Of a stretch of 64,000 bases of DNA, positions 1,865 to 63,043 are shown piece after piece. Source of the DNA: Scenedesmus sp. ARA3. Taxonomy: Eukaryota; Chlorophyta; Chlorophyceae; Sphaeropleales; Scenedesmaceae. The stretch covers positions 40,105-104,104 of the forward strand of contig RWJK01001098.1 of NCBI GenBank assembly GCA_004335835.1, read 5' to 3'. The translations under genes and the position numbers were made by a program. Every line of letters starts with the position of its first letter. Position 1 is the first letter of the stretch. A model generated the notes under the pieces. The model was not told the origin of the DNA. It saw only the letters and a program-made list of their open reading frames with translations, and made no database searches.

Positions 1865-4331
1865 TTAGTTCTGCCAGGCGGTGCGGCTGATGGGGTCGCT
1901 GTTCACCCTCTCAGTCTGGGCCATGGCGACAGCACGGTCAGCCTGCAGCAGCAGCAGCAGCAGCAGGAAGTGTCAGATACATGTCGACCACGCATTGAAA
2001 CATGCGTATCAGTTGCGTCACACACTCACCTGGACACTATTTGTGAACAAGACGGGAGCATTTAGGTTTGGAACCTCAACCTCACACAGCAGCAGCAGCA
2101 GCAGCGCCCTCCTCACCTGTGCGATCTGGATCCGCCCGTCGGGGTTACCGCTCAGCGCCATGGATCCCACCGGCTGCATAATCATTCAACTGAGCCACGG
2201 CAGCCAGCCACTATGCAGCAATGCCAAATGACCACAGCAGCATGCATTTGACACGCACACTTGCCAAACCCTTCCTCCATTTTAGTCTGATCACCTGTTA
2301 GGATGCATCCAGAGCAGCTTTCCTTTGCAGCCACACGCCCACAAAACGCTGCAGCCACACAAGCGCGCAGCCAAACCCTCCTCACCTGTGCAATCTGGAT
2401 CCTCCCGTTGGGGTTGCCGCTCAATGCCATCGAGCCCACAGGCTGCGCCGTCGTGCCGAACGAGCCGCGGCGGCTGGCCGCAGGCAGTGCGGAGGTGCTG
2501 CCGGTGAGCATGCTGTTGGCGATGACGGTGCCACGGCGGCCACGCTTGCCTCCCTGGTTGACCATGATACTGTCGGAGGCTGCTGCTGCTGTGGCGCCCT
2601 CGTAGCTGCGAGAGTGGAATAGTGCAGCAGCAGCAAAACAACAACTGTTAGTATGGGTGGCGGTGCAGCAGTGACAGCAACATACAAGACAGCTGCCAGC
2701 GCTCGGGTAGCACTGCTGCAGGGTGGTGAGTTCGATGTGCACACATAGCTTCCACTGCCTGTGCGCGCTGCGTTCTTGCCCAGCTTCAGCATATCTTGCA
2801 GTATACATTACAGGCAGCTAACATACAGCCGTGTCAGCAGCAGCTCACGTGTTGGAGTAGGCGACACCTCCCATCATCAGGGCGGGGAACTGGGTGGCTC
2901 CGTTGGACAGGTTGGGCGCACGAGGGGCAATGCCCACCAGGTCAATTGCAGAGCGGGCACGCACCTGCCAGTTGCAAAAGGCAGCATTGACAGCACCTGG
3001 TTTAGAGAGCTAGGTTGATGTGGGTTTCGGCGTCAACTAGGACGGTACGAGGCACTGCAACAGCAAGTTGTGTGTTGCGGCAGCCAAGTTTCCCGCACAG
3101 AAGGACCAGGTGCTGGTGGCTGCTGGCTGGGCGTTGCCTGCTAATCATGCACAATCTCCTGCCTGCAGCTGCGGCTTACACATATACATGCTGATAGCTG
3201 TGGGTTTAGAAAGAAGATTTGAGTTACAAAACCCGCCTGCACCACCTCCGCCTTCCAGCTGGGGTTCATGTTGTCACTGGCTAGTGGCTGAGGGTAGCAC
3301 TGAAATGTCCTCAAACCCACCTGCACCACCTCCTCCTTGCGGTCGGGGTTCAGTGTCACAGGGTCTGACTCAACGGTGGCGTACGACATGCGGTTGCCGC
3401 TGGCCATGTTACGGTAGATACCTGCAGGACACAAAATGGGCGGCAGCAGCAGCAGCAGCAGCACAGCGGTCAGTGATGTAGCGTGGAGGGGTGCGCTGCT
3501 GTGGCTGTGATTCCTGCACACTTCCAAGCTGGACATCAATGCATAGAAGCTCTGCTACTGCACCAGCACCTGCCGTGCAATGCCAGTCAGAAGCTGCACA
3601 GGAAGGCATGCATGCATGTAAGCCAGCTGTGCCAGCTGCATGCACCGTTTGTTCTTTTACAGGCTCCTGCTGTGCACATGCCAGGAGGATGCTGCTCAGG
3701 GATGCATGCATAGCTTTAGCTGTATGTCCAGCTGTGCCAACTGCACGCACCGTTGTATAGGTTGTTGGAGGCGGCCTCAGCAGCCTCGGGCGTCAGTGCC
3801 TGCTTGTTGGCCTTGCTGGGGCGGGGCACAAAAGCACGGGAGTTTGCAAAGGCCAGGTAGCCACTAGGGTCTCCTGGGTCCTCCTTGTCCTGGAAGTGCT
3901 TGCGTAGGGGGCTCTTGGTTTGCCTGAGCAGCCTTGATGCCTCGCAGTGCTGGGTAGCCACTGCAGATATTTGCAGGACAGGCGTAGACAGGGGGAGGCC
4001 GTGAGTAGGTGCATGGTGGAGGCTGCTTTTGCTTATGTTGTGAGTTGCAGGTGATGATGAGCTGCTGCAGCTGCTGGCAGTGAAGTTAGAAGTGGACGTC
4101 GGCATGCGCTGTATCACATGCTCGTCTGTGCTATGGTGGCTGAACTTCTGCATCATTGGAGAGGGAGTTTGGCAGCGTGGCAACTGCATAAGAACAGTGC
4201 TTCTGCTGCTGCTGAAAATGGTCCATTCATGATCCTTTCAGCCAGCACTGCTGTGTAACTGCTGCTGTGTTGCCTTTACCTGCTGCCAACAGCAGGAGCG
4301 CAACGAAGGCCAATTGGTTGTTGGATGCCAT
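1865..4331 (-). CDS. Small secreted protein, family not recognised (258 aa, 6 exons)
   Basis: Exons on the minus strand are 4331-4280, 3960-3751, 3421-3321, 2964-2849, 2605-2386 and 1942-1865; all phases close. The N-terminus MASNNQLAFVALLLLAA is a clear signal peptide created by the first splice, so the product probably enters the secretory pathway or an organelle lumen. The mature part has a basic start, a run near residue 190 with GKRGRRGT, and conserved-looking segments such as SAIDLVGIAPRAPNLSNGA. It ends TAWQN. No catalytic motif is visible and no function is proposed. Diverged copies of the ends of exons 3 and 5 lie in the following introns. Exon joins are well supported; identity is unknown. 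Confidence 0.75.
2111..2171 (-). repeat. Copy of exon 5 3' end and donor in the next intron
   Basis: It repeats about 60 bases of the secreted-protein exon 5 (real copy 2381-2440), including the CAG|GTGAG donor. It encodes GRIQIAQ again with a Asn-to-Asp change beside it. Confidence 0.85.
3230..3275 (-). repeat. Copy of exon 3 3' end in the next intron
   Basis: A diverged copy of 3312-3355, reading NPSWKAEVVQ instead of NPDRKEEVVQ. Its donor position has become GC (CAG|GCGGGT). Confidence 0.8.
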
Positions 4332-6817: not shown

Positions 6818-9800
6818 TTAGTGCGCCGCCACCGCGTTTCCTGCTGCCGGCAGTGCATCTGCTGCTGCCACAACCGCGTGGCGCTTGGCGCCCGGCGTGG
6901 GGCTGGGTGAAGCCATGGGCTTGCGGCCGATGCGCTCCAGCAGCGCATTAAGCTTCACCTCAAGGGTGCTAAGGTCATCGTACATTGCCTCCAGGTCAAA
7001 GCCCTGCAATCAATCAATCAGTTAATCAATCAGTTAATCAGTCGATCAACCAGGCAGCAGCAGCAGCACCAGCAGCAGCACCAGCAGCTTCACCTCCAGC
7101 ATATCCATGCTGAAACAAAAATTGCAGGTCAAACACTTTTTGATCACTGCGTAACACAAACATTAACGCATATTTGAGATGCCGCCTCACCTCCCACGCG
7201 TAGCACTGCTCCTTGAAGGTCTTGTTGGCCACCCACACCGCGCTGTTGCACTTGAAGCCGCTGCCAAAGGCCAGCTGCAGCACCTTGTCGCCCTTGGTCA
7301 CGCCCCGGAAGTGCTCAATGAACGCCAGCACATACCTGCGGCAGCAGCAGCAGCAGCAGTAGCAGCAGCAGCAACGCTCCCAGAGTCAGCTGACGGCTTC
7401 CACACACAGCACACAGGTAAGCATCACAAGGCAAGCAATACGCCGGTAACCATAGCAGCTGATGTTGGCATTTTAGCACTTTACTACAACTGGCAGCTGA
7501 TCGTATCATGCCACACCTAATGCAGCCAAGGCAGCATGCTAGAGCCGCCAGCATGCCAGCCGGGCACCAGACGCTGCTGCTGCTGACGTTGCCGTAGCGG
7601 TACAGCGCCGCCCTGGAGGGCTAAACCTGAAGCCTGCTCTGCATTGCTTGGTATGTAACACAGTTGGAACACAAAAATATCACGGTTGTAACACGAACAT
7701 AACACGCACCAGACGCTGCTGCTGCTGACGTTGCCGTAGCGGTACAGTGCCGCCCTGGAGGGCTCCACGAAGTCGTTGCTGAGCCCCAGCTCCTTCTGGA
7801 TGGCATCAATCACGCCGCGGCCCCCTGCATGCATTCAAAAGTGTACAGAGATGTGTCAGCATGTCAAATCAATGGTTGTGTGCTCAGCCCCAGTTCCATC
7901 TGGATGGGCATCAATCACACCACGCGCGCCTGCATTGATGTGGCAGCAGCAAAGACACGTCAGATATCGGTGATTGAGTGCGCAGTATCAGCTTTATGTG
8001 GATGCCGTTGATGTGCATCACCAGTCCCAAAGCTCAGGTCACACAGCAAACAAGGGCACCAGCAGGGTTGCCGTCTCACCTGTGTGGATGCAGATGTGCT
8101 GTGCTGCCACCTGGAAGTCAGGGATGTACGGCGCCAGCTTCATGCCCAGGTCATGAAAGCAACCATACATACAAACGCATGTAGCAGCAGTGCTGCCGTC
8201 TCACCTGTGTGAATGCGGATGTGCTGCGCTGCCACCTGGAAGTCAGGGATGTATGACATAATGTGCATCCATAGATCATGACTAGGATTGAAAAACTATA
8301 AATGCAGGCAGCAGCAGCAGCGCTGTCGCACCTGTGTGGATGCAGATGTGCTGTGCTGCCACCTGGAAGTCTGGAATGTACGGCATTATGCGCATCCCTA
8401 GATCATGAAATTAGCCACCGAATTACACGCAGGTAGCAGCAGCAGTGTCGTCTCACCTGTGTGGATGCAGATGTGCTGTGCTGCCACCTGGAAGTCTGGG
8501 ATGTATGGCGCCAGCTTCATACCCAGCAGCTTCCGTGCAGCCATGTTTGCGCCAAACACCAGCATCTCGCTCATGGGCAGCACACGGGGGCCCAGGCTGG
8601 TGATGTTGTCCTTCAGCGCCTTGCCTGAAAGTGACAACCAAAGTAACAGATGTGACAGTGTTATAACAATGTGTGAAGAGTGCATGCTCGCTCATGGGCA
8701 GCACGCGGGGGCCCAGGCTGGTGATGTTGTCCTTCAGCGCCTTGCCTGCAGCAGCAAAGCGACATCGGACCCAGCAGCAGCAGCAGAACCAGCGCCTGGA
8801 TAACAACATTGTGCTTGACCCAGTTCCCTGCAAGTTCTCAACTGCTGCACAGCAAACCCACAAGCTGCTGTCCTTCCTGCACCAGTGACCACACGCACCT
8901 GCGATCTTCATTAGCTCCTTGCTCAGCTTCATGCAGCAGCAGCAGCAGCAGACACCAGTCGCCACACGCAACTGCACCGCCCAGCACACACGCACCTGCA
9001 ATCTTCATCAGCTCCTTGCTCAGCGCCACACAGCAGCACCACCACCACCAAATAACAGCATCACTAAACAACAACCCCCTTCCCAAGCAATAAGCAACAT
9101 CTTTCTCCTATCTGCACCTGCGATCTTCATGCGCTCCTTGCTCAGCTTGACGCAGCAGCAGCAGCAGCGACAACAATGCATCGCACCTGCAATCTTCATG
9201 AGCTCCTTGCTCAGCTTCACGCCCCTGTTGCCCAGGCTGTCCTCCATCTCCATCACGCAGTTGTAGCTGGTGTCGTCACCAGACAGCGTCGTGCGCACCA
9301 CGCTGTCCAGACGGTACTTGGAGCGGCTGCAGATGTGATGCAGCAGCAGCAGCAGTGGGCTGTCAGCGATGCTGCATGTCATGGTGATCGTCTGCCAGCT
9401 GTCACAAACACAGCATGCCATGATGCGCAGCAACTATGGCATCGCTTTCCTGCAAGATCCTGCTGTTTCCTGCAAGGCCTTCTCCTTTCCTGCAAGCAGA
9501 CATGCCTTTCCTGCAAGCGCGCCCGCCACCTCTGCACTCACCGCGCCTCGCTGCGCTTGTTGGTCATGAGCATGGCGGCGCCGCCCACGCGGAACAGCAC
9601 GTTGGGGATGAGCATGGAGCGCTGCGTGCCCTTGTACATGTTCTGAGTGATATTCTCGGTGGACACCACCAGCGCATACGTGTCGGGGTACAGCTCCAGC
9701 ATCTGGCGGGCCAGGTCCACAGCAATGGGGCTGGCTGAGCAGCCCATGCCCCCCAGGTTGTAGGTGATGGTGCTCTTGGGCATCTTGAAGTGGTTCATAA

Positions 9801-10613
9801 TGTACGCGCACAGGCTGGGGGTGGGGCAGAACAGGCTGCAGTTGACCACCAGGATGCCCACCTGGGCGGGCTGGATGCCAGTCTTCGCCAGGAGATCACT
9901 GCGAGGCGGAAATGACAGAATGACAGTCATTTTTGGTGTTAGATTGTTTTTTATGTGAGACTGCAGTTGACACCAAGCTGTTCACCTGGGCAGGGCCATA
10001 CCGGTCTCCAGCAGGTCGCTGCAGCACGATGCATCCTCAAAATGGTCGGGCCTTAACTCCAGCTGCAGTAGGTGGCGAATGGCACGCTGAACTTGACCAT
10101 GGCTGCTGCCGCGCTGTCACCTCCCCGCACGATCACCACATTTTATACCCCAGCTGTGTGCTGCTGTGCAGGCGTATGATGTAACACGCTGCAAATCACT
10201 TTGAAAAGCAGTCAAACATCTGCAGTCAAACATCAGTCAAACGCCACTCACAAGCAGGCCTTGACCACCACCAGGTTAATCTCCAGCTTGGCCTTCTCCT
10301 TGCTGGTGGTCTGCAGATGTGCTACTTTCTTTTGCATGTGCTACACATAAATATTCAAAAATATGTTATCGTCACTCACGCGCAGGCTTTGACCACGACC
10401 AGGTCAAACTCCAGCTTGGCCTTCTCCATGCTGGTGGTCTGGGGATAGTTGCCCAGCCAGGGCGGCAGGTAGGTCTCATTGCCCAGCCCGCCAAACCACA
10501 GCACCTTGCGCTGGAAGTCAACAGCCTCTGGCGTGAACACCTGGCTGTTCTCGGCATATGCCTCGCTGTCCAGCCGGCTGTGCTTCCAGCTGCGCAAGTG
10601 ACAAATACAACAT

Positions 10614-10659
<46 letters not shown>

Positions 10660-12845
10660 GACAGAGCAAGGTTGGTTACAAGAGCATGGCAACAGTGGCA
10701 TTTGCGCTGAAGGTCAACAGCCTCGGGCGTGAAGACCTGGCTGTTCTCAGCATAGGCTTCGCTGTCCAGCCAGCTGTGCTTCCAGTTGCGGTGCTTCCAG
10801 TAATTGGCCAGTGTATGCATCACCGTTGGCGGTAGCGGCGGCAGCAGCAGAGAAAGAGCAAGGACGAAGCTTGGTTGCTTGATGTTGGGTACAGGGGCAT
10901 GAAACCAATGAGGCCTGGCTATTGTCCATGACAGGCGGCAGCAGCTCATTGCCCAGCCTGCTGTGCTTCCTGCTGCACTTGTTTGCATGCATGTGTGGCT
11001 TAACGTGAAGGTGGACGCGCTTGCAGGAACATTGATCGGCAACAGCAGCAGCAGCAGAGCAAGGGGAGGAGGAGCGATTGAATTCAACAGTGACAAGGGT
11101 GTTGATGGCTGGCTGGCTGGCGGGCGCGCAGTCCATGGTGCAGCAGCAGTTGACAAGACGCCTGCAGGGTTGCTTGCAGGAAGGATGTTTCAGCTGCGGT
11201 CTGCTCTGTAACAAAAAAATCCAGATTTCCGCAAGCTAAACACGGGTTCCTGCAAGCTGCTGGATGCCGGCCAGCCAGCTGCATCATGCACTGCTGCCAC
11301 CCCTGCGCTGGTGAGGCTGCCTTTTCCCTGCTGCTGCTGCTGCTTCCATAGCGGCACCAGCTATGTTGCCTTCCTGCACAAAGAAGTCCGCTTGCAGCCA
11401 CAGCTGGCATACACAGGTGGCTGCTGCTCCTGCTTCGCTGCGTGATCTTCCGCTTGCGCTGCCTAGCCTGCTGCTGCTGCTGCTGCACTTTCTGCCCTGC
11501 TGCTGCTGCTGCTGCTGCCGCACCTGTCATCAGGGCGCTGTGCAATGTAGTCCACAAGGTAAATGGATGGCTTGCGCAGCGCATGCCAGGCCAGCGCGGC
11601 TGCCAGAGCGAGAGCACACACAGCAACTAAAGTGAACTGCAGCAGCAGCAGCAGCAGCAGCAGTAGCAACAGCAGCAGCAAGGTGGTGAGCGCAGCTAAG
11701 CGTGATGCTGGCGGCCTGGTGGTCGTTTGACAAGATATTGAATGCGATGTGTGATGTGCTGCTGCTGTGGTGCCATGTGAACAGTAGCGCAGCTGCTGGT
11801 ATTGTATGCTTGGAACATACTGTTTGGCTGGATCTTGAAGCCTTGTCTTAGCATTTACTCACCAGGTCGAATGTCAAGGTCGTCTCCCGCGCCAGCACCA
11901 GCAGCTGCTGAAGCTCGCCAGTGGCCCACATGCTCTGCAGCTTAAACTGCGCGCAACAGGAAAAAGAGTGCGTGATTTCATGTCAGTCCTGCAGCTGCCT
12001 GGTTACAGGCTGTACTGTCAAGCCGGGAGAGTGAGGGCACTTACCGCCAGGGCTGCACCAGCAGGCAGGCCGATTCCCGGCACTGCATGCTTGAAGGCAA
12101 ACTCCAGCACCTTCTTGAAGCGCGCCAGTGCAGGCGAGTCTGCATCCAGTGCGCAAAAGGCTCAGAATCAACTGCACCGTGCAAGGAAACGCAGCCGTCG
12201 CCAGCAGCCGCGCAGCTCACCAGGCATCCTGCCTGGAGAATCCAAAACTGCCATTTTGCTAAGAGCTTAGTCTGCTGTGCTGGCAGGTGGCCCCTAACAG
12301 CAGTGGTGATTGAACGTGATGGCTGTACAGTGCCAACCGAATCTCTGCCTAGACCTTTACGCCGTTTGCTGCTGTAATCAGTGCAACTAGAGAACTGCTG
12401 GTCGCAAGTCAGCTTCTCGCTCGCTGTCCTGCTCCGTCACTAGGGGCGACCCCTGTGGTACGCTTGTGGTATATTTTGTGGGCAACAGTCAGCCTTCAAA
12501 TTAACATCAAAGTTAAGTTGATGGGTTGGAAGTGTGTTTACTGCTGGCAATTTGCAAAAAGCAACAGAAGTCGTTGCAGTTGTCTTGTCCCTGCTGTGCC
12601 TCGGTGGGTTTGTGGGGAGAACGACATGCGGCGGCACATCCGCCTGCAGAAAAAGCTTCCGCAAGTGCTGCTGGTGGATCGTGTATTATAGACCATCAAG
12701 TAGAGCAGTCTGGTCACAGAATTGCTACGCTACCACCTTCATCACAGTCATGCATGCTAGCATTTCGCTTTAGAGTCGCTCAGAATCGGCTCATCAAGTT
12801 AACGTCTGTAGCAGCGGCATCCATTGGCTTACCTGCCCCTGACAT
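6818..12845 (-). CDS. Very-long-chain 3-ketoacyl-CoA synthase (FAE1/KCS family, 541 aa, 11 exons)
   Basis: Condensing enzyme of the ER fatty-acid elongase: malonyl-CoA plus acyl-CoA gives 3-ketoacyl-CoA and CO2. Minus-strand exons: 12845-12833, 12139-12045, 11946-11863, 11636-11524, 10589-10380, 9898-9542, 9326-9187, 8624-8457, 7824-7710, 7335-7191, 7003-6818; all phases close. A membrane helix ([17 protein letters not shown]) precedes [12 protein letters not shown], the usual KCS N-terminal signature. The active-site triad is intact: Cys about 225 in GMGCSA, His about 392 in HICIHTGG, Asn about 425 in YRYGN, almost the numbering of Arabidopsis FAE1. [11 protein letters not shown] is also present. 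The start is the first ATG after an in-frame stop. Only one N-terminal helix is obvious, where plant enzymes have two. Its introns carry many copies of its own exon ends. Confidence 0.97.
7560..7950 (-). repeat. Copies of both ends of synthase exon 9
   Basis: 7560-7620 repeats the exon 9 3' end (real 7711-7770, [14 protein letters not shown]). 7880-7935 repeats its 5' end (real 7780-7825). Both keep a splice-like junction, so the exon is flanked on each side by a partial copy of itself. Confidence 0.85.
8070..8400 (-). repeat. Three tandem copies of synthase exon 8 3' end
   Basis: Copies at about 8075-8150, 8202-8265 and 8329-8395 repeat the real 8452-8525. Each has a donor-like CACAG|GTG and encodes (I)[15 protein letters not shown] with few changes. 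The period is about 125 bases and AGC-rich spacers separate them. Confidence 0.9.
8683..8750 (-). repeat. Copy of synthase exon 8 5' end
   Basis: Near-identical copy of 8560-8630 with its own acceptor (ctgcag|GCAAGG). It encodes [19 protein letters not shown]. Nearly identical sequence suggests a recent event. Confidence 0.9.
8890..9160 (-). repeat. Three tandem copies of synthase exon 7 3' end
   Basis: Copies at about 8896-8930, 8997-9032 and 9117-9150 repeat the real 9183-9225 ([11 protein letters not shown] and the following donor). Short CAG-rich or CCA-rich spacers separate them. Confidence 0.9.
9960..10320 (-). repeat. Copies of synthase exon 6 5' end and exon 5 3' end
   Basis: 9963-10025 is a diverged copy of 9838-9900. 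10246-10320 is a diverged copy of 10372-10440. Both lie in the intron between exons 5 and 6, each beside its parent exon. Confidence 0.8.
10617..10660. repeat. (CAG)n run in synthase intron 4
   Basis: About 14 AGC/CAG units just upstream of the exon 5 acceptor on the minus strand. Confidence 0.95.
10690..10800 (-). repeat. Copy of synthase exon 5 5' part
   Basis: Repeats about 90 bases of 10503-10590, including [17 protein letters not shown] and an acceptor-like site. A further short fragment lies near 10950. Confidence 0.85.
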
Positions 12846-12877: not shown

Positions 12878-15800
12878 ATGCTGAACACAAGGGCTCTCCA
12901 GCAGCCGCGGTTAGCGCATTCTCAAAGACTTGACACGATCCTTCGTCACGCACTGCGTGTGGCTCCTAGCAGCGCCCGATGCAGCTCGACCACTCAAAGG
13001 CAGCGACAGGCAGGGCACAGCCTGGTGTGCCAAGCAGCAGCAGGAGCTGGGCCTGATCCTGCAGGCACCAAGAAGCAGCTGCCCATATTTCCGCTCAATG
13101 TTGTGGCGCTGCCTACGGCAGTGGTGCCCCTCATGATCTTTGAGGCCAGGTGCGTCCTGTGATGTAGTAGTCGAGCTGGTGCAGCACAGCAGCACCTGTT
13201 GTGGTTGAACTGGATGCTGTGCTGCTGCACAGCTACACAGCTTCAAACGCGGCATGGCATCTACAGTGCAGTGCAAGAGATACGAAATAGCAAAACCATA
13301 GATGATGAACATGACACACTGCACTGGTGTCGTCTTGTGTGGACATGCACCTGCACATTCAGCACAGGACACCCCGGGCTCCTTGTCCATGCAGCTGCCC
13401 TCATGCTCTAAATTTTAGTAGTAAGTAGGCTACGCGTTTTGCGTGGCCTAGTAACTACTTTCTTGCCCCTAGCATGTGCAGTGCTACAGCGAACTGGAAT
13501 CACAACCGCCCGTTCCCTCTACATCTGTGCTGCTGTATGTGTGGAAGACACCTTCATTGTCCGTCGCTGCCACGGCTTCCTGTACCGCAGCACTCACTAC
13601 ACTGCATTGCATTGCATTGCTTGTCGAGCTTGTCGCAACTGCAATGTCGCCTGGTGTTCTGGCCTCCTTTCTGCTGCAACACAGTACAGAGCAGCGTCAT
13701 CAACTTTGCAGCACTGCTTCCATGTGTCGTGCGCCTGGCTGATTGATGCACCACGCATGCGCTGCTGCGCCCCCAACACTGCCTGGCCTGGGCTGTGCTG
13801 CTGCCACACGGCTGCGTGGCTTGTATGTAAGGCAAGCATCAATACTATCCAAAACCGTTGGAGTAAAATCAACACCAATATATCATCAAACTCCACCACA
13901 TGCTGCTGCCTGAATTGTTGTTAAACAATGATAATAACAGAATGATGAAATGACGATCCCGCAGGTACCGCGTGCTGTTCAACACGCTGCTGGCGGGAGC
14001 AGAGAAGGTTGAGGAGGGCTTGGTTCAGGAGGACTCGCCGTTTGCAGGTGAGCCGGCAGCAGCAGCAGCAGCAGCAGTGTGGCGGCTTTCCATGCAGAGT
14101 TGTGCAGTGGAGTGAGGTGTGAGCACGGCAGCACTGACAGCTGGCAGGATGGCGGGGCAGCAGCAGCAGCCGCAGCAGCAGCGAGCACCACACGGCAGTT
14201 GCAGAACGACAGCGCCAGCAGCCATGTGTTCACATTCTCGGCGTATAAAAGCCGGTTGCACTGCGCTGCCGCTGTGCCTGCCATGTGCTGCGTGCACATG
14301 CGGAGGCTTGTGGACTCACGCAACAGCACTGGCCATGCTCTTGCCATCATCATTCCAGCAGCTTGCATGCAGCTTGCACCTTGATGCCTACTTGCCTCGC
14401 GCGGTGCCATCCTGCTGTGGAACGCCTGGCTGAGCTGTCTCTGAGACACACAGTCAAAAAACCTCATCCTCTTGTTGCTCCCTGTCGTGTAACACGTTAT
14501 TTGTATGTTACTTGCAGGCTGTTGGGGCTTTGGCGTGTGCTTTGTGGACGACAGCAACTGCATGTCAGCTATCGGCAGTGCACTTGGGATCCACAATTCC
14601 TGATCCTGTTGTTATCCTGTGTAACACCCTGTTGTATTGTATGTTACGTGCAGGCTCCCGGCGCTTCGGCATGTGCTTTGCCGATGATGTCGGCCGCATT
14701 TCGGGCATCGGCACTACACTCGAGATCCAAGACTTCCTGATCGAGTCCAGCGGGCGCATGTATGTTACTAACAAAGGCATCGAGCGCTTCAAAGTGACAA
14801 AGGTGGTCAAGCAGCAGCCGGTGCTGGTGTGTGAGGTGGAGGTGCTGCCGGAAGATGACGACCAGAGCGATGAGGTAAGCCGCAGGGTTTAGCCAACTTG
14901 GAGCTAGGGGTGGGGTTTGAAAGGCTGGGGTGGAGAGCAGGGCTTAGTGCGATTTAGTGCTGGTGTGCGAGGTGGAGGTGCTGCCAGAAGATGATGATCA
15001 GAGCGACGAGGTAAGCCGCAGGGTTTAGCTAACTGGGAGCTAGGGTTGGGGTTTAGAGGCAGGAGTCGAGAAAAAGGGTTTAGCACAGCTGGTGTGTGAG
15101 GTGGAGGTGCTGCCTGAAGATGACGACCAGAGCGATGAGGTAAGTTGCAGGGTTGAGCTAACTGGGAGCTAGGGTTAGGCAGGGGTGGAGAGCACGGCTT
15201 AGTGCGGTTTAGTGCTGGTGTGCAAGGTGGAGGTGCTGCTAGAAGGTTATTATCAGAGGGACGAGATAAGCCGCAGGGATTAGAACGCAGCTAGGGTTGC
15301 GGTTTAGAGGCAGGAGTAGAGAAAAATGGTTTAGCACAGCTGTTGTGTCAGGTGGAGTTGCTGCCTGAGGATGACGAACGTAGCGATGAGGGTAAGCCGC
15401 AAGCAGCAGACCTGTTGCGCACCGTGCTGCGCCTGCACCTCAAGCGCCGCACCAATCTGTACTCACTATTCTGCCCACCTGCCGACTCCTGCCTGCCTGC
15501 TTCACCTGCTTTCACCTACTTTTTCTTCGTGACAGGCCAAGGCGCTGGCAGCGCAGGTAGCAGACCTGTTCCGCAACGTGCTGCGCCTGCACCTTAAGAT
15601 TGCCCGAGCCAAGCTGCGCCCGGGCGCCAGCCGAGGCTCCTCAGCGGCTGCTGAGCCACTCAACTCGGAGGCTGAGGACGAGGTTATTGAGGCGATGGAG
15701 CTCACCGAGTCGAGTCCGAGCCAGCTGTCGTACTGGATCGCGCACGCGTTCTCGGTGAGTTTGCATGCAGCTGCAGGCTGCTCGCTGGGTCTCACAGGAT

Positions 15801-16228
15801 GCTTTGAATTAGATGTGTCGTAGGAGGTGAAGCTGTGTGTTGGGCAAAGCTGGTGCAGTGCTTCACAGATGAATTTAAAAGACCATGGAGCGGCTGCTGT
15901 ACTTGGTTTCTGTATGTACAAAGCCATGACAACCATCGACAAATACTCCTCCCGCCCCTGCTGTGTGTTTCCCTCTGTGTTTCTTTCATTTCTGCCCCAG
16001 CAGGACAGCCGGCTCACGCAGCAGACCCTGCTGGAGGTCAATAAGACCATGGAGCGGCTGCAGGAAGAGAAGGCGCTGCTGGAAGGCACACTCAAATACT
16101 ACTCTGCAGCAACAGCACTGGAGGGCGTGTTTGGCGGAGGCAGCGGATCAAGCTCTGCGTCATCGACCGAAGGAGCAAAGGGAGCATCCTCATCCGAGGT
16201 GCAGCCGCCGCCCGGCGGGCCCGACTAA
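12878..16228 (+). CDS. LON-substrate-binding-domain protein, probably plastid (340 aa, 5 exons)
   Basis: Exons 12878-13149, 13965-14047, 14654-14874, 15536-15754 and 16001-16228; phases close. Residues 1 to about 60 are rich in Arg, Ser and Ala with almost no acid residues, like a transit peptide. From about 65 (KKQLPIFPLNVVALP) the LON N-terminal (PUA-like) domain runs through RRFGMCFADDVG and the basic GIERFKVTKVV stretch. No AAA ATPase or Ser-Lys protease domain follows, so this is the stand-alone form found in plants and cyanobacteria, not a Lon protease. The tail has a Leu/Glu helix and a Gly/Ser-rich end. The last acceptor is CAGCAG, so one Gln may be optional. Function of stand-alone forms is poorly known. 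Confidence 0.92.
14505..14560 (+). repeat. Diverged copy of LON-gene exon 3 5' end
   Basis: The tract with acceptor ttgcag|GCTGTTGG matches the real junction at 14648-14690. It reads FGVCFVDDS where the exon reads FGMCFADDV. Confidence 0.8.
14950..15410 (+). repeat. Four tandem copies of LON-gene exon 3 3' end
   Basis: Copies at about 14957-15020, 15088-15150, 15213-15270 and 15343-15395 repeat 14820-14890 (VCEVEVLPEDDDQSDE plus the GTAAGCCGCAGGG donor). The period is about 125-130 bases. Each copy includes roughly 50 bases of intron, so the duplicated unit spans the exon-intron boundary. Confidence 0.9.
15395..15460 (+). repeat. Copy of LON-gene exon 4 5' part
   Basis: Matches 15550-15610 (ADLFRNVLRLHLK). 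Here it reads ADLLRTVLRLHLK. It directly follows the last exon 3 copy. Confidence 0.8.
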
Positions 16229-16261
16229 GGGGTTAAGAAGTGTGGTGATTGCGAGGGTTTA

Positions 16262-16700
16262 GGCCTTTGCGCTGGACGGCGTGTTTGGCGGAGGCAGCGG
16301 AGGCAGTTGCTCTTGCACTGAAGGAGCCAAGGGCGCATCCTCATCCGAGGTGCAGCCGCCGCCCGGCGGGCCCGACTAAGGGTTTAAGAAGTGGTAGTGA
16401 TTGCGAGGGTTTAGGCCCTGGCGTTGGAGGGTGTTTGGCGGAGACAGCGGAGGCAGTTCCTCTTCATCCTCCACTGAAGGAGCCAAGGGAGCCTCCTCAT
16501 CCGAGGTGCAGCCACCGCCCGGCGGGCCCAACTAAAGGTTTAAGTAGTGGTAGTGATCGCAGGGTTTAGGCCCTGGCGCCGGAGGGCGTGTTTGGCGGAG
16601 GCAGCGGAGGCAGTTCCTCTTCCTCCTCCTCCACTGAAGGAGCAAAGGGCGCCTCATCATCCAAGGTGCAGCCGCCGCTCAACGGGCCGGGCTGAGGGGT
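16262..16700 (+). repeat. Three copies of the LON-gene 3' coding end after the stop
   Basis: Copies at about 16280-16390, 16425-16535 and 16580-16700 repeat the last 110 bases of the CDS (GVFGGGSG ... GGPD and stop). They show that the duplications also affect the terminal exon, where no downstream splice site exists. Confidence 0.9.
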
Positions 16701-22702: not shown

Positions 22703-22789
22703 TAATACACTGTCAGCAGCTGTCTGGCGGCTTTCTGAGTTGCAGTTTGTATACATGGCCTCAGACAAAGATGGTGTTTGGATGCCTTT

Positions 22790-22832
22790 TGCATGCGACA
22801 AGGACAACCTGTTCATCCTGCGCAAGCTGTAG
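22790..22832 (+). repeat. Copy of fibrillin last codons after the stop
   Basis: Repeats DKDNLFILRKL and the TAG stop about 130 bases beyond the real end. Confidence 0.9.
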
Positions 22833-40439: not shown

Positions 40440-40493
<54 letters not shown>

Positions 40494-40990: not shown

Positions 40991-41043
<53 letters not shown>

Positions 41044-41093
41044 NNNNNNNNNNNNNNNNNNNNNNNNNNNNNNNNNNNNNNNNNNNNNNNNNN

Positions 41094-41153
<60 letters not shown>

Positions 41154-42167
41154 ACAACGTCAGAACATACAGTTGTGCACAATGACAGATCGATCAATTG
41201 TGTGGATGGGATGGATGTGTTGTAAAACATTGGCAATGCAAGAGCCCCATGTGAGTGGTGTATATGAGAGCAGCATGTGACGGCCAAGCAGCTGCCATCG
41301 ACTGCTGCCCGTGCGATATGCTTCTATATTGAGCAGCCGCACACCAACACCTCAGCTGCTGCCCAACACCGTGCAAAAGGCTGCCCACCTGCGCCGCTCT
41401 CCTTGAGTGATGTGGTGAGCACGCGGCCGCCCAAATTGCTCAGCGTCTCCTCCTTGAACTTGGCTCGCTCGTTGATGCTGGCCTGCGTGCAGCAAGCAGC
41501 AGCAGCATGGTACATTTGAGAACTGAGTCGCCCGTTTAGTATAAGTCTGCAAGCATGCTGGCACACCCTACGCGGTTGCTCCTGCTACGCTTATCACACC
41601 CTGCAGTAGTCTGAGCTTTTCATGCAAGGATCTGACACATGGGCCCCACCTGGTCGTGTGGAAACAGGCTGTTTGTTTGACGCAGGAATCCCTGCATCAG
41701 CCCCACCTGGTGGTACTTCTGCTCCAGCTCGTCAGAGTTGTCATCACAATCAATGCACAAACCTCAGCACGGCCAAGTGACCAAGAACACAATATGGGTT
41801 AGGCAGTAAATCCTGCCCTGAAGCCCCACCTGGTTGTACTTCTGCTCCAGCTCGTCACAGTCATCAGCACAAGGCATATGCCTTTTAGATCATACAGGCT
41901 TTCCAATCGACAGCAATGCCCTTTCAAAAAAGCGTGCACAGCCCACCCCCACCTGGTTGTACTTCTGCTCCAGCTCGTCAAAGTCGCCACTGTCATTGCA
42001 CAAACTTGAATCACTGCACAACAATTCCTCATTCCTTGCTGACTTTTCAATTGCCCCACCTGGTTGTACTTCTGCTCCAGCTCGTCAAAGTCGTCGGTGA
42101 GGAAGAGGCTGCTGGCGCCGTAGCTGCAGTACTCCAGGTTGCGGGACAGGAACACCACCACGTCTGT

Positions 42168-42264
<97 letters not shown>

Positions 42265-48200: not shown

Positions 48201-51200
48201 ATGCACTTGTACTCACATGATACTGACATGTTAGTTTTTCACCTGCACGCTGATCTCTGTCCACATCAGCGAGGGCATGACAACAGCAGCCAGGGGCGGC
48301 CTGGCTAGCTCTGCTGCAGCATGTGATGGCAATGACATGTTACTGAACATTTGTTATGTTGTTTCCCACCTGCACGCTGACTTCTGTCCACATCAGCGAG
48401 GGCATGACAACAGCAGCCAGCGGCAGCCTGGGTGGATCTGCCGCGTCAATCCTGTCCACAGTGTACACCTTCCCTCCAGAGAGCACAGCCTGCAGGAAAA
48501 AGTAACACAAAACTGTGGTGGCCTTGCATTGCACTTTGCAAATGTCCTTGCTTGACACCAAATGTAACAAGCATTCTTATGCTTACACCTCAAATGAAGG
48601 GCAGCCGATATACAGCAGCATGGTGGATTCTAGCATGTGCAATACTGTGCAGTGGGTTGGGTGCTTGATTACACCATAAGGCATCCACCTCGCTTGCAGC
48701 AGCTGCGGGCCTGCTGCTTGTTCTATCATGACCTGCATTACGCACTATGTATGCACACTGTGCACTACTGGCAGTACCACCTAGATTACTGCAACCACCC
48801 CAGCCTCTTTCATGCTTGGAAGTGCAGTAATGTGCACATGTGCTGTACCACATGAACAATTGTATTTGTATGTACTATACAGTCTCCTTGTATCAAACAT
48901 CCCACTAATTGCAGGTGCCTGATGTAAGTGTAACACCCCTCACCGCTCCACTCCAGAACCCTGCGGGCTTGGTGCCCCCAGCATGCAGCCCGCTGCCCCC
49001 CTCAGGCTGACTGATAACGCATATGCCTGCTTAGTCTTTTGTTGCACTGCTCAGATGTGCTTCAAGTCGTTAGCACTCACCGCTCCACTTCAGAACCCTG
49101 AAGCACTCATGCTGGCCTCCCTGCCCCTCAACACCAGCGCAGCAATCTGCACCTACACTGTACCACATGAAACATTATATCTTTTCGTAGCATACAGCCC
49201 CCTTGTGTCAAACATCCCACTGGTCGTAGTGCCTAACGCAACTGTAACACCACTCACCGCGCCACTCCAGAACCCAACCGGCTTATTGCCCCCAGCGTGC
49301 GGCCCGCTGCCTCCCTCCGGCTGACTGATAATGCACATGCCTGCTGAGTCATGTGTTGCACTGCTCAGATGTGCCGCAAGGTTTTACCACTCACCGCCCC
49401 ACTCCAAAACCCTGCAGGCCTGGTGCCCCCAGCATGCAGCCCGCTGCCTCCCTCCGTCTTATCTAATACAATAAGAGAGGGGATGTTACAATACAATCTA
49501 ATGAAGCTGCCTGCTGTATCAAATGTTTAACTGCTCAGACGTGTCTGGACGTAGCACTCACCGCCCCACTCCAAAACCCTACAGGCCTGGTGCCCCCAGC
49601 GTGCAGCCCGCTGCCCCCCTTAGGCTGCTGCAGCAGCACCTCACTGCTCAACCGGGCCTCCCTGCCCCTCGGCACCAGTGCAGCAGCCAGGAAACAGCTC
49701 GGCGATGCTGCTGCTGCTGCTGCTGCTGCTGTGCCGGCAAACTGCCAGAGGGCTCCTGTGTTGAGGATGCTGACGAGGGTGAAGCTGCTGCGGGGGGTGC
49801 TGCTGTCGGGGCCGATGTGCTACAGGGTGGTGCAGAGAAACACAAGCAGTGCAGCAGCATGAGGTAGGCAAACAACACCATGCTACTGTCGCCGCAACAC
49901 ATGCGTAGGCCAGGCCAAGGCCTGCAGAATGCCGCGCCTGTCAGGGCCGACATAGCAAAGCCAAAACGGCAAGCTGGAGCAAGTGATCATGCGCGGGCGT
50001 GCTTGGCTGCTGCAGGCACAGCATTGACCTTGCAGGAGCAGCCATCAAAGTACATCATGCATTCACTCTGAGCTATTGCTGACCATAGATGTACAACCGT
50101 CTTGAATACCACATTCGCAACAGGAGCAGCAGCAGCAGCAGCAGCTGCACTCACGTCACACACAAAGTATGCGGCAGCGCCCGCTGCATCCTTGGCCGTC
50201 TGAGGAGGTGCCGGCTGGCACTGCCTGAGGCTGCTGGGGCCGAGGTTTAGCGCACTGCCTAACTCAGGGTTTAGCTCAGAGTCCCAAGTGGGGTTTAGCG
50301 CCGCCAGGATCTGATCGGCTGAGAAGACCGCATACACGAAGTTGGGTGCCCCCTTGTAGACCTTGTGCTTTGGCAGAGCCAGAATGGTGGCGCCTTGCTT
50401 TTTAGGGTCACTGGGACAGTAGTTGAACCTGCATGTGGCATGTTGCATGTTAGCAGTGAGACCTCATACACATTGTGTTGAGAGGGATACAATGTTGAGA
50501 TGGACGCAATGCTGCTGCAGTGTAACAGCCAGGGGCGGGGGTAGTCATCTGTGCATGGTGCACACAACCACTTCAACAAAGGTGACGCCATCTGTTTGCC
50601 CCTGCAGGTGATTGCCAGTCCAAGCTGCAAACATGACCAGTCATGGCATGCCGTATTGGTGATGGCCGCTGCTCCGCTTCTACCACCCTTTATGTCCCAC
50701 ATGTCCCGAAGCCTTGCTGTCACACTCTCTATCACACGGCCGCAGCCGATCTCAACTCACAGCGATAGGTACACCCCGTTGGCATCATACGTCAGCCTCA
50801 CAGAATCTGCCACTGCTGTTTCCCGTGGGCTCGTGCACTCCATTGCTGTGCCAGCAGCATCCGCCACAAGAGTGAACAGGAACCACGATCCCAGCGGGTC
50901 TGCTGTTGCTGTTACTGCCAGCAGCACGGCCCCTTTGCCGCTGCAAGTGGCAGTGATCAGGAAGCGTCCAACTGCTTTGTCATAGGCTGGTATGGCATCG
51001 TACACGCCGTCCCTGCAGCAGACAACAGGACACAGCAGCAGTGGCGACGTGTGTCAAAATGCGCTGTGTGGCTGGGGTGAAGGCAGTCAGTGGATTCAAG
51101 ACTAACGTGTTTGACTGCTGTCCTAGCCGCAAACATCACCTCTGCTGACAAGCTTTTACTTCAGCAGTCCCATCTTCACCTGACTCCTGCAGTTCCAGCA

Positions 51201-52230
51201 GCTCCCTTTGCTGTTGACTGCTGCTACGTTTGGTTCAGCTCATACCATCCACATGTACAGTCCACCCACCTACAAGTTGGCTGCTCCCACAGAGGCAAAT
51301 AATTCCTGCAGGGCAAACGTCTTTGCCGCCAGCTGGCTGCGGCTGGCAGCATATGCATGATGCATTCACGCTGTAAACAGCCAGTACAACAACTATACAA
51401 CAACATCAACAAAAAGCAACGAAATAAGTACAAGATCAACATTGTTACTTGCAATCCATCCACCTGCAACTTGCTGCTCCTACGGGGCGAATAAGTTCTG
51501 CAAGGCAAACGTCTTTGCCGCAGCCTGGCCCCTGCTTGCAGCATCCACGCTGTACACAGCCAGCACGGTGCTCACGGAATGTAGCACATGGCCCGGCCCT
51601 GCAGCCAGCCCCACCCCGCCATCATCTCTACTTGCTTTCCTGTGAACCCTTGAGTTGACGGCTGCTTTGCTCAGTTCAAGCAACCAGAAAAACAAACAAC
51701 ATACATACATACATACATCACCCACCTGCAGTTTGCTGCTCCCACAGGAGCAAACAAGTCCTGCAGTGCGAACGTCTTTGCCGCCACCTGGCCTCCGCTG
51801 GCAGCATCCACGCTGTACACTGCCAGCACTGTGCTCACGGAATGTAACACATGGCCCGGCCCTGCAGCCAGCCCCACCCCGCCAGCATCTGCAATTACTG
51901 TCCCTGCTGTTGACTGCTGCTTTGCTCAGTTCCAGCAACCTAAAGAACAAACCATCTAAATGATGATTCACCCACCTGCAGTTAGCTGCTCCCACAGGGG
52001 CGAACAAGTCCTGCAAAGCAAACGTCTTTGCCGCCACTTGGTTGCCGCTGGCAGCATCCACGCTGTACACAGCCAGCACAGTGCTTACAGAATGTAACAC
52101 ATGGCCAGGCCCTGCAGCCAGCCCCACCCCGCCAGCATCAGCCCACCAGAGGCCTGTCCAGCCCGGGCGCTGCTTTTGCTGCTGCTGCTGCTGCTGCGGC
52201 TGCTGCTGCTGCTGCGGCTGCTGCTGCTGC

Positions 52231-59432: not shown

Positions 59433-61127
59433 CTGCAGCAGCAGCTGCCAGCACGGATTGAGTCAAGCGAGCCTTGACAGGAGCATTGTGACTGCTGCCT
59501 GGCCAAAAAACACCCACAAAAGCAGAAGCAGAAGCAGCAGGCACACAATGAAGCATCTGCCGCAGCAGTGGTGTGAAGACGACGTGCAAGGCGTTCTAAG
59601 ACTGGTGATCCAGTCTAGACATGTGTCGTTGAGCTGCAAAATGACTGTCAAAAGAACTGGTGTGGTTTCAAGCAAAACGCTGTACAGGTCATCTGCATGC
59701 CATGGACAACCAGATAGCATGTGACACACATAACATCTGATATAGGCACGCCTACTCGCTTCATCTATCACAGGCAGCAGTAGCAGCAAACCGCACACAT
59801 GCACGCTAGGTCTACATGCATTGCCCCAAGCAGCTGAATGGGGAGATACACCTCAGCCACCCCGACACGCCACCCAGAACACAACCAGAGGCCACACCAG
59901 AGCACGACAGTGCAGCAGCAGGGGCCTGAACTAACAAGGCAGACCAGCAGCGTCACATGCAGATGCTCACAAGCACAGCGATGCTGGAAGAGGCTGCAGC
60001 AGCGCCTACATCAAACGGCCAGGTACGAAGCACTGCAAGCCGGTATTGCAGTCTGGCAGGGCGCAAAGCACAGCACACCCGGAATCTGACAGTGCCACAA
60101 TCGACAGGTGACGAGGCCGCTTCAGATGTTGCCACAGCTGCGGCAAGCCCGCAATCAACTGAGGCAAAGAGGCAGTCAGCTCCAAGCATTCCTGAACAGT
60201 GCAGGTGCCGTTTTCTAGCCAAGGCTGGCTGCGGCAGCCCGCCAGAATTCAAACGCCAGTCAAACTCAAAACTGACACTGACTGCGGCAGCCTGCCAGGA
60301 TTCAAACGCCAGTCAAATCAACTCGATAACTGACACCAACAGATCATACTCATGATGCCACAACATGCCAAGCAAGTCTCTACAGGTTGTCTCATGCAGG
60401 TGCACCGCATATCATACGTTGGAGCAGCAGCAGCAGCAGCAGCAGCAGCTCTCAGCACGCCAGATGGCACATACGTTGTTGCACTAGTCAACATACATAG
60501 CAGGCGGTAGGGCATGTGTTTCACAAACCTACACACCATGCCTCACATGCTGCACAGCTGCCACATTACACACGGCAGCACGAGAGGCCCACCGGACTGT
60601 CCTGACCCTCTTTTGTTTTGTTAAGAGCAGGACGCCGGGAGCTCATACGTTGGAATACGTTGGTGTTTATTCTACCGACAGCCGCACAACAGCCGCCGAG
60701 ACGCGCAGCTGGCACACATGCCACAGGCTGACAAACGCGCCTTGTTCATAGCAGCATTCAACTCAAACTACTAACTCGCATTCACACTGTATCGTGCGCA
60801 GACAGCCGCAGGCTCCGTTCCACATCAGAAACCTACGCCTTCAAACCGCCGCTGCCGGCGCCAACGCGTGCGTTAATAAACAGTACCGGCTTCTGCCACC
60901 GAAGCACGACCGCAGGCTCTAACCCATAACCACGGCAGACGCCGCTGCGCCGCCACAACACGACAGCTAGCACGCTAGCTCGCGACACACCAACTTGTCA
61001 GCAGCTGCTGCAGCTGCTGCCCTCAACAGCGCCACCGCTGGCGCCACAGCAGGCGCTGCCAACCTCCCCACCCACAACGCCGCCACAAATCAACAGCCAG
61101 CAACCTAGGTAGCAACACACCAACTTG
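59433..61127. other. Mostly unassigned, includes copy of a gene end
   Basis: 60985-61060 repeats 61105-61180, the 3' coding end and stop of the multi-span membrane gene. Apart from that and the candidate near 60 kb, nothing is supported. Confidence 0.5.
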
Positions 61128-63043
61128 TCAGCAGCTGCTGCAGGCGCTGCCACCTGTCCCGCCCTCGACTGCACAGCCGCCGGCACCACAGCAGGCCGGC
61201 TGTGCAGCAGCAGCAGCAGCAGCAGCCTTCGCCACCGGCACCGGCCGCATAATGCTGCTGCCCCAAAAGCCCAGCCGCTTGGCATTTGCCGCGCCTGCCA
61301 CGCCTGCCAATCCATTGCCGCCGGTGGCTGCTGACTCTGCTTGGGTCAAACCGCCAGACAGAAACGCCTGCCTCGCTGCAGCCTCCACTTGCAGGACGAT
61401 CATGCAAGGCACAACCAGCCCAGCAGCAATCAGCTGCAATCCCGGCAGCAGCGCCGCGCCGCGCGTGCACAGCAGCAGCGCGACTGTCTGCATGAGCTGC
61501 ATAGGGATGAAGGCTGAGAAGCGCAGCATGGTGCATGCCACAGTAAGGGCATGCAGCAGCGTCAGCAGCAGCAAGCCACTGCCAGCTGGCTGGCTAGCTG
61601 CATGCAGGCCACTACTGATCATCGCCAGACGGCTTAGCACATGCAGCGGCTCCCGTAGCGCAAGGTATTTGCGGTTGGGTGCTTTCAAGGCTACCAGCAG
61701 TAGTGCTGCCATCGGCAGCAGCAGCAGCAGCACCGCAGGAGGCACCACGAGCGCCCAGGACGCTGCTGCTGCTGCTGCGCAGCCTTGATCGGCGGCAGGA
61801 GCTCGACAGAAGCCCAACAGACACCAGCACGGCGAGGAAGATTGCTCATTTGCAACCGCCGCCGAATCTGCAACTGTCACCCTTCCTGCTGCCGCGCTTG
61901 CTGCTGCTGCTGCCGTCTGCCAGCTGACACGCAGTGACGTGCACAGCACCAGCAGGCACCATAAGCTGCTCAAGAACAGGTCGATTGTGCGCTTGCTGCG
62001 CACTGCACAACCCTGGAACCCTCGTTCCAGCTGCGCTGCCCTGAACTGCAGCGGCCGCAGCTGAGATACGGCTACAGCAGCTAAGCCGGGCAGCAGCTGC
62101 ACCAGCAGCTGGCACTTGCTGTTGCTGCAGCGCCCGCCCCTGCTGCTGCTGCTGCCGGCGAGCGTCTGCTGCAGCTGAGGTAATAGCGCAAGCACTAGCA
62201 AGCATGCCACGACGCCTAGCATCAGGGGACCTGCTGCCTGGCAGAAATTTGTCACTCGCAACCTATGCAGCTCCTGCAGGACCTCACTGCTGCTGCTGCT
62301 GCTGCTGCCGCATGCTGCTGCTGGCTCGCCCTGTGCAGCGGGCTTGCAGGATGCGGCGTCAGCTGCTGCTGCTGCTGCTGCGGAAGCAGCCGGCTGCTGA
62401 TCAGCAGCCGCCTGCATGCACTGGGGTAGCTGCTGATCCTGGCCTGTGCAACTCGGCTCCTGCTGGACATGCTGCTGCTGCTGCTGCTGCAGGGCAGGTT
62501 CTGCATGGCTGCTGCTCAGCTGCTGCTGGGGTGCTGCAGTGCGCTGCTTCCTGGCTGGTCTTGCCAGGCACGGAGGCGCAGAAGCCTGCACAGCAAACAG
62601 TGCAGAAACAGTGCAAAACGAACGGGCATGGCGGTTGTCCCTCAGCTGTTGCATAGCTTACGGGGTGCGGTTGTGCTGCGCAACATGCAGCGAGAGAGAT
62701 GCTGCTGCGTGCTGCAATCATACAACAGCATCGCTGCTTTGGGCGCACTGCTGGTGCCACGTTTGCATATTTACTTGACCTGCGAGTTGACCTGAAGCAA
62801 TAGCTGTGTGCCCGCACTGCGGCGTGTGACTCATGGCATGTGCTGCTGCTGCACAGCACCCATGGGTTTACAGCACCTGACCAGTCTCACCTGCTGCACA
62901 GAGGCAGTCAGCGCTTGCTGATCCAACAGAAACATGTCCTTGAAGCAAAACACTGCATCCTGCACCTCTTCAACGGCCCAGGCTGATCTGCTTTGTAGAA
63001 GATACCCTTCCAGAGCTATGCACCCGAGGCTCCCATGGTCCGC
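61128..63043 (-). CDS. Multi-span membrane protein, unknown (3' part of gene)
   Basis: Two exons are clear: 63043-62891 (51 codons, ADHGSLGCIALEGYLLQS ... LTASVQQ) and 62585-61128 (485 residues and stop); both junctions are phase 0. The second exon could also be read from an ATG at 62654. After a Gln/Ser-rich linker there are about seven hydrophobic segments, for example LMLGVVACLLVLALL, LFLSSLWCLLVLCTSL, ALVVPPAVLLLLLPMAALLL and LIAAGLVVPCMIVLQV, then a Gly/Ala/Cys tail ending CSSC. No family is recognised. Upstream, 63294-63135 looks like another exon (MVRPRIQPFIAATYMDGHLL in one frame) but no donor fits, so the 5' end is unresolved. Confidence 0.65.

Follow-up and report, generated by a model that had tools for sequence, protein, structure and literature searches.

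Introns can be created by internal gene duplication and are remodeled genome-wide by introners, which copy themselves into many genes, and minisatellites and whole-exon tandem duplications are familiar forms of head-to-tail repeats. Tandem duplications that span a splice junction are, to our knowledge, known only from single cases. In a potato gene, such a duplication across an intron–exon border created a new intron, with support from RNA reads, and a second duplication of 83 bp was noted inside an intron (PMC4974935). The same paper describes Rogers-type AGGT duplication, a segmental duplication within genes that gives extra splice sites (PMC4974935). Small tandem duplications have also been attributed to break repair by Pol alpha-primase and non-homologous end joining, and are introduced in that report as short insertions of <100 bp (PMC8355091). 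Here, we describe arrays of exon-end copies in the introns of the alga Scenedesmus sp. ARA3, found in a stretch of 64,000 nucleotides (hereafter the window; contig RWJK01001098.1, C779 in our numbering, 40105–104104) and in other parts of the 87.27 Mb assembly of 1567 contigs to which it belongs.

The arrays share with introners the remodeling of introns across a genome, but both of the spacers tested here were single-copy. Like minisatellites and whole-exon duplications they run head to tail; however, what is copied in most catalogued cases is an exon end, and many copies fall short of a full repeat unit. As in internal gene duplication and the AGGT model, a segmental duplication within a gene gives extra splice sites, but these models derive introns from exonic sequence, whereas in the alga existing introns grow and the mRNA is apparently unchanged. 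The closest likeness is to the potato gene, since both involve direct tandem duplication over an intron–exon border with the parental splice signals included (PMC4974935). The potato case concerns one gene and a new intron, whereas in the alga arrays occur at half of the tested junctions, the protein models read by eye carry each copied segment once, and over half of the copies have lost flank homology (PMC4974935). Break repair could plausibly generate short direct duplications like those of the alga, although its duplications, as introduced in their report, are <100 bp and the algal units peak at ∼130 bp and persist as arrays (PMC8355091). No report of exon-end arrays at such density was found in the literature searched (open-licence papers only).

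Exon-end copies at splice junctions

The exon borders of three genes of the window (KCS, LON-domain, and DUF1517; 18 introns with 36 junctions) were set from protein models of Tetradesmus obliquus, namely, P0002/P0001, P0146, and P0121, respectively. The DUF1517 protein assembled from the window exons showed 98% identity with P0121 (OEZ86_004152) over the whole query, the LON-domain protein 100% identity with P0146 (OEZ86_004158) over 89% of the query, and the KCS protein 88% overall identity with P0002 (OEZ86_004159), which is without part of one KCS exon and matches the remaining exons mostly at 97–100%. A KCS paralogue fragment elsewhere (L006) matched the T. obliquus UniRef entry P0049 at 97–100% in several exons. 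Because the window proteins match T. obliquus models, the window DNA is, as judged from sequence, that of T. obliquus or of a strain very near it. In the KCS gene, the end of exon 3 was placed by hand at its donor site before the junctions were tested, and exon 5 was joined by hand from two fragments since it is whole in P0001.

Each 60-nt exon end was compared with the adjacent intron and with 200 dinucleotide shuffles, which already allow for intron length and give a smallest possible p of 1/201. A copy of the exon end was present in the adjacent intron at 18 of the 36 junctions (p = 1/201), i.e., at 7 of 18 5′ splice sites and 11 of 18 3′ splice sites. No junction (0/36) reached z = 5 when the intron was reverse-complemented, and none of the 17 other introns equaled any of the 18 junction matches. 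At 17 of these 18 junctions, 28 copies with a local score of at least 20 could be placed, one to four at each, with few indels (12 gap columns in all); the match at the 18th junction was weak. The 13 copy-bearing introns (249–934 nt) were longer than the other five (98–226 nt; Mann–Whitney p = 0.0002). Comparison of the window with itself at distances <3 kb (E ≤ 1e-4) gave 76 direct and 3 inverted matches, two of the latter being a self-matching stretch. An automated catalogue of the window listed 26 arrays, of which 19 remained after removal of seven that were doubtful or at open reading frame (ORF) ends.

To extend the analysis beyond the window, 20 stretches chosen by position (L007–L026, 194.6 kb) and two KCS-paralogue fragments chosen by similarity (L005 and L006) were added, giving a sample of 264.7 kb with 202 direct and 2 inverted local repeats. 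Two further 10-kb stretches fetched later contained 9 direct and 0 inverted repeats; this later sample checks direction and presence only, and several of the statistics otherwise draw on one sample, with thresholds chosen while viewing it. Outside the three curated genes, the exon models on which most arrays depend are predictions of a small hidden Markov model (HMM) trained on the sampled DNA, curated genes included. The HMM recovered 19 of 21 curated exons to at least 88%, and it also called some copies exons and fused neighboring genes. A predicted exon was touched by 73 of 86 arrays, as compared with 45.5 ± 4.3 after circular shifts (p = 0.0005). Arrays covered 13.9% of predicted gaps of ≤800 nt (putative introns) and 13.2% of exons; in longer gaps, coverage fell with distance from the nearest exon, from 8.7% up to 250 nt to 3.1% at 250–500 nt and 2.1% farther away. 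The exon-end catalogue comprised 65 arrays with 106 copies, 32 of the arrays lying within the 194.6 kb picked by position. A strict set drops seven arrays, all in the window (ORF ends, possible coding repeats or misplaced borders). Statistics quoted for 65 arrays or 106 copies retain them, and so do the mixture fit, the gapped extension, the counts on two-member arrays, and the synonymous and nonsynonymous counts outside the curated arrays.

The arrays recur on stretches such as L008, L013, L014, L017, and L030, and their density is uneven, the 24 bins of 10 kb holding 0–14 arrays each (mean 3.1, variance 12.6). Four stretches with multi-exon predictions (L009, which holds what we take from its translation to be a PP2C-like gene, L011, L012, and L015) had no array in the strict catalogue, and L015 has one in the set of 86. 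Two KCS paralogues also carry arrays, but some of the junctions are not the same and the copy numbers differ; therefore, the duplication events recur. The correlation between arrays and CAG-rich bins was not significant (Spearman 0.39, p = 0.058, 24 bins). A search with P0002 for comparable DNA of relatives gave 23 pattern matches in genome contigs and 1 in viral contigs, none of them confirmed. CpG was depleted (observed/expected ∼0.45–0.66) throughout the sample, except in one N-rich stretch, and this depletion suggests CpG mutation pressure.

The original prediction, made from the window, was that the adjacent introns of at least nine multi-exon genes contain copies of exon ends together with the splice site, that such copies occur at 5′ and 3′ exon ends alike as well as beyond stop codons, and that they lengthen introns. 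The analysis bears this out, with direct copies of varied divergence at both types of splice site, copies beyond stop codons (16115–16705, 32879–33346, and 39612–40009), window arrays over about nine gene regions, most with HMM exons, and the association with longer introns. It also called the phenomenon pervasive; recurrence across the genome agrees, but the distribution is uneven, the matches at 60225–61151 touch no predicted exon, and large parts of the window are empty. The claim that CAG runs often separate the copies is weakly borne out, as a run of at least four units occurred in 29 of 106 spacers versus a fraction of 0.179 ± 0.037 of random noncoding intervals.

Repeat units and their flanks

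In the strict set, adjacent copies were spaced at a median of 131 bp, with 58 of 90 spacings between 100 and 145 bp. Multiples of three were not favored (22, 35, and 33 of 90 spacings left remainders of 0, 1, and 2, respectively). The intron flank no longer matched in 54 of the 90 strict copies (35/54 at 5′ and 19/36 at 3′ sites), an unmatched flank being defined as one with at most 7 matches in 16 positions. The flank at 9–24 nt past the junction was bimodal, and a mixture fit assigned 66% (5′) and 64% (3′) to random sequence and the remaining third to an identity of 0.77–0.82. An extreme example is the 5′ splice-site array at 41698–42095, in which the four units have ∼36 exon nucleotides plus GTGGGG in common and little else, and the flanks of the copies show no relation to the flank at the used exon.

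The extent of homology relative to the splice site was estimated in two ways. Among 95 repeats with at least 85% identity and a length of <85% of the spacing, a predicted splice site lay inside 56, in which homology extended a median of 6.5 nt (interquartile range 2–9) into the intron and 55 nt into the exon from the nearest splice site; masking of CTG runs shortens some intron-side overhangs at 3′ sites in this set. Unmasked gapped extension reached a median of 16 nt into the intron at 5′ sites (peak at 4–12) and 36 nt at 3′ sites, and flanks classed as unrelated mostly ended within 12 nt. Plain full tandems, with homology over at least 85% of the spacing, made up 6 of 38 two-member arrays, as against the 54 of 90 exon-copy pairs with unrelated flanks, and the spacing was alike. 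Apparent copies of whole short exons were seen in few arrays (e.g., L008 6796–7171 and L030 1585–1908).

Adjacent pairs with homologous (25) and unrelated (56) flanks had median spacings of 129 and 131 bp, respectively (Kolmogorov–Smirnov p = 0.97), and this identity suggests that both flank classes started as equal ∼130-bp units. Block identity in exon-copy pairs with matching and non-matching flanks was 0.883 and 0.894 at 5′ sites and 0.913 and 0.861 at 3′ sites. Owing to the same spacing and the similar block identity, one process probably made both classes, and flank loss is probably not simply a function of block age. Even at a block identity of at least 0.93, flanks were unrelated in 8 of 12 5′ and 5 of 9 3′ pairs. 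The flank of a dead tandem copy should diverge at most ∼2 times as fast as its exon block, with which these pairs of nearly intact block and unrelated flank conflict. Hence, the original picture of copies in differing degrees of decay agrees with the range of divergence but is incomplete, because flank loss at the observed block identities is not expected from plain duplication and decay.

Origin and maintenance of the arrays

The explanation that we favor, at a probability of about 0.4, is recurrent tandem duplication of ∼130 bp in which the exon block is kept tied to the used exon by exchange as the intron side decays. Short tandem duplications would arise at many places in the genome, and those across a coding/noncoding border would be tolerated, with the extra copy landing in the intron or the 3′ untranslated region, because the copy adjoining the exon body remains in use. 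The exon block and a few splice-site bases would then stay near the used exon through repeated overwriting or exchange, presumably by gene conversion or template switching, and the intron-side flank would decay freely. The result would be splice-site-bounded repeats and longer introns; intron-only duplications would fade from view, which would be why the arrays seem concentrated at exon ends. The direct orientation, spacing, and position of the copies are observations, and we infer that the copies are not spliced.

The preponderance of direct repeats, the ∼130-bp spacing without preference for multiples of three, the equal spacing and similar block identity of the two flank classes, the remaining plain tandems, and the bimodal flanks agree with this explanation. 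Mismatches between exon and copy favored synonymous changes (66:41, 62%, in 38 independent pairs versus 0.40 expected, p = 7e-6); this count uses two-member arrays, since pairwise counts in multi-copy arrays count common changes repeatedly. CpG mutation was considered as the cause and explains only part of the bias, which persisted when CpG sites were dropped (92:72, 56%, versus 0.357 expected, p = 1e-7). By origin, changes common to at least two array members were 8 synonymous and 0 nonsynonymous, changes private to the used exon were 17 and 3, and changes private to a copy were 39 and 43 in the whole sample, with 27% synonymous expected for random change. Mosaic patterns were seen by eye in the KCS exon 7 array, with three mutually incompatible two-against-two groupings, and in the DUF1517 last-exon array, where exon and flank group the members differently. 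The sole array with enough sites for a four-gamete count failed it; this is the ORF-end array at 16115–16705, outside the strict set. In DELLRDYPK, another T. obliquus strain has the R found here in a copy, whereas the used exon here has H. A second match with that strain (E in LLEKTG) was dropped, as it hinges on where a gap of 3 bases is put in a copy of 75% identity. On the basis of these synonymous and nonsynonymous patterns and of the mosaics in a few arrays, we tentatively favor recurring exchange with the used exon, in which other alleles may also take part, over selection on the copies.

Several observations weigh against this explanation. With gaps allowed, homology goes deeper into the intron, ending within 24 nt in 34 of 66 5′ pairs and in just 12 of 40 3′ pairs, the deeper 3′ homology being due partly to CTG runs that look alike. 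Where flanks could be aligned, block and flank divergence were similar in real-copy pairs (27/106; 0.113 versus 0.133, p = 0.19) and in copy-copy pairs (9/59; 0.147 versus 0.113), as plain neutral duplication predicts, in a subset selected for low flank divergence. At 45 nt, the homology is short for gene conversion to be efficient. Under conversion alone, ∼40% of mismatches should be synonymous; with 62% observed, additional constraint or allelic differences must therefore contribute. The synonymous bias was stronger with matching flanks (90:32 versus 79:58, Fisher p = 0.009, common changes counted repeatedly), as it was within two-member arrays (22:9 versus 37:29). Copy-private changes seem neutral in the multi-copy arrays that were curated (9 synonymous, 20 nonsynonymous), mosaics were seen in few arrays, and the R of the other strain could have arisen by a separate mutation.

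Plain neutral tandem duplication followed by decay is the best-surviving alternative, and we consider it unlikely. The copy would be dead from birth and invisible to the mRNA, and the enrichment at exon ends would reflect survivorship and easier detection. Unit lengths that are not multiples of three, the equal divergence in pairs with alignable flanks, the private changes of the curated arrays, and some young plain tandems (39612–40009 and 14821–15401) agree with it, but the decoupling of flank loss from block divergence, the synonymous excess with and without CpG sites, and the fall in array coverage from putative introns to noncoding DNA 500 nt or more away from any exon do not. The flank and codon tests speak against it in most arrays.

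That the copies are functional, being sometimes spliced and translated or serving as splicing elements under purifying selection, appears improbable. Mismatches were concentrated at third codon positions (146/709, versus 54/706 at first and 32/710 at second positions), the copy-private changes given above exceed the synonymous share expected at random, the curated copies have few indels, and the splice dinucleotide was retained in 55 of 66 5′ and 31 of 40 3′ copies, a figure that comes without a neutral expectation. However, the protein models P0001, P0002, P0121, P0122, P0146, and P0148, as seen by eye, carry every copied segment once; splicing in a copy would add ∼130 nt, mostly out of frame; the 8 nt past the 5′ splice site are less conserved (78–82% where the block identity of the pair is 0.85 or higher) than the block; and one DUF1517 copy has a 1-nt deletion. 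The same protein models and spacings leave the original proposal that the arrays offer alternative exons unsupported.

Copying bounded by the splice site itself, in which break repair near exon–intron borders re-copies the exon end together with filler DNA so that the flank was never homologous, is rated slightly lower still. The short intron overhang in the 56 of 95 repeats spanning a predicted splice site (CTG masked) and the genome-unique spacers (2/2 tested) speak for it. The spacing, however, equals that of units with homologous flanks, breaks at splice sites have no known reason, and the synonymous bias is left unexplained. Mobile spacers were rejected, as both spacers searched are single-copy in the genome. 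An assembly artefact from haplotigs or misjoined alleles is hardly credible even in so fragmented an assembly, as the copies are not identical to one another, each of the two spacers tested has a single occurrence, the copied KCS segment is present at one locus besides paralogues at 77–80% identity, and the arrays recur on many contigs.

Features of the window and their meaning

Table 1. Genes, exon-end arrays, and other repeats of the window (positions within the window).
Feature	Position	Strand	Details
Repeats in a predicted gene region	2098–3754	−	2098–2479 and 3229–3352 at exon ends; 3566–3754 nearly all intronic; three exons scanned, no Pfam match
KCS gene (FAE1/type III PKS-like)	6821–12146	−	Pfam PF08392; spliced against P0002/P0001; start codon not fixed
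KCS exons (numbered 10 to 1)	6821–7003, 7191–7335, 7710–7824, 8457–8624, 9187–9326, 9542–9898, 10380–10589, 11524–11636, 11863–11946, 12045–12146	−	
KCS exon 8, 5′ splice-site array	7564–7764	−	1 copy; spacing 142; 98% over 59 nt, no homologous flank beyond
KCS exon 8, 3′ splice-site copy	7777–7935	−	spacing 105
KCS exon 7, 5′ splice-site array	8047–8526	−	3 copies, spacings 125/127/125
KCS exon 7, 3′ splice-site copy	8566–8748	−	62 nt at 98%, spacing 121
KCS exon 6, 5′ splice-site array	8890–9222	−	3 copies, spacings 69/122/97
KCS exon 5 start, weak 3′ splice-site copy	9958–10015	−	75%
KCS exon 4, 5′ splice-site copy	10242–10446	−	spacing 128
KCS exon 4, 3′ splice-site copy	10506–10790	−	84 nt at 90%, spacing 196
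LON-domain gene (portion matched by P0146)	13963–16225	+	Pfam PF02190; exons 13963–14047, 14654–14874, 15536–15754, 16004–16225
LON exon at 14654, 3′ splice-site copy	14501–14742	+	spacing 136
LON 5′ splice-site array	14821–15401	+	4 copies, spacings 136/129/126/125; several pairs with homologous flanks (plain tandem state)
LON exon 15536 start, copy	15398–15598	+	spacing 154
LON exon at 16004, weak start match	15879–15898	+	score 19, reached in no other intron
LON ORF-end array (last exon end, stop, 3′ sequence)	16115–16705	+	period ∼155 bp
Four arrays in one predicted gene region	20943–22917	+	20943–21199, 21803–22116, 22128–22434, 22668–22917; HMM-only gene model; both exons scanned without Pfam match
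Subtilase gene, 3′ splice-site array	27707–28295	−	3 copies; Pfam PF00082 close by
Subtilase gene, 3′ splice-site copy	31605–31813	−	spacing 127
Terminal-exon array (exon end, 3′ sequence)	32879–33346	−	stop codon in 2/3 units; spacings 187/193
DUF1517 gene	39953–43910	−	Pfam PF07466; P0121 98%
DUF1517 exons	39953–40096, 40787–40872, 41389–41482, 42060–42163, 42827–42929, 43429–43626, 43830–43910	−	
DUF1517 terminal-exon array with stop codon	39612–40009	−	111-bp period at 96%
DUF1517 last exon, 3′ splice-site array	40031–40566	−	3 copies, spacings 130/192/142
DUF1517 exon 40787–40872, 3′ splice-site copy	40843–41001	−	spacing 114; adjoins CTG run containing 50-N gap
DUF1517 5′ splice-site array	41698–42095	−	3 copies, spacings 107/123/123
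DUF1517 exon 42060–42163, 3′ splice-site copy	42315–42356	−	spacing 198
DUF1517 exon 42827–42929, 5′ splice-site copy	42603–42881	−	spacing 215, 92%
DUF1517 exon 42827–42929, 3′ splice-site copy	42884–43172	−	spacing 180
Two arrays in a predicted gene region	48193–49627	−	48193–48444 and 48821–49627, the second excluded from strict counts; sole exon tested (48343–48576) without Pfam match
Array	51241–52142	−	period ∼250 bp; excluded from strict counts

An additional exon of the LON-domain gene is likely upstream, near 13065–13149. The ∼250-bp tandem units at 51241–52142 may be real repeated coding exons and not dead copies. In the DUF1517 gene, the 50-N gap lies at 41044–41093 within a long CTG/CAG run of an intron. 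A second DUF1517-like match elsewhere in the genome (G000:C28:38155–38595; 45% identity over P0121 residues 127–269) is in one open frame, whereas the window gene splits this region over several exons. Three identical 23-bp repeats at 30299–30368, in the intron directly past a predicted subtilase 5′ splice site, are apparently very recent. Outside the window, a minisatellite with a 42-bp period lies within predicted coding sequence (L016 2909–3330).

Since copies occur at half of the tested junctions in three genes and at many other loci, a single species allows statistical study of how introns grow, of decoy splice sites, and of what becomes of the copies. That exon block and intron flank are uncoupled can be tested as a sign of either local gene conversion or hidden selection within introns. 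Gene prediction in the genus may label copies as exons, as the HMM used here did at several copies. It is conceivable, if rather doubtful, that introns here are largely made of exon-end arrays with a ∼130-bp repeat whose exon blocks still recombine with the used exon. If so, every exon end would have a linked set of slightly differing spare versions exchangeable into the coding sequence, and this would be concerted evolution anchored at the exon, with the splice site showing where homology is preserved.

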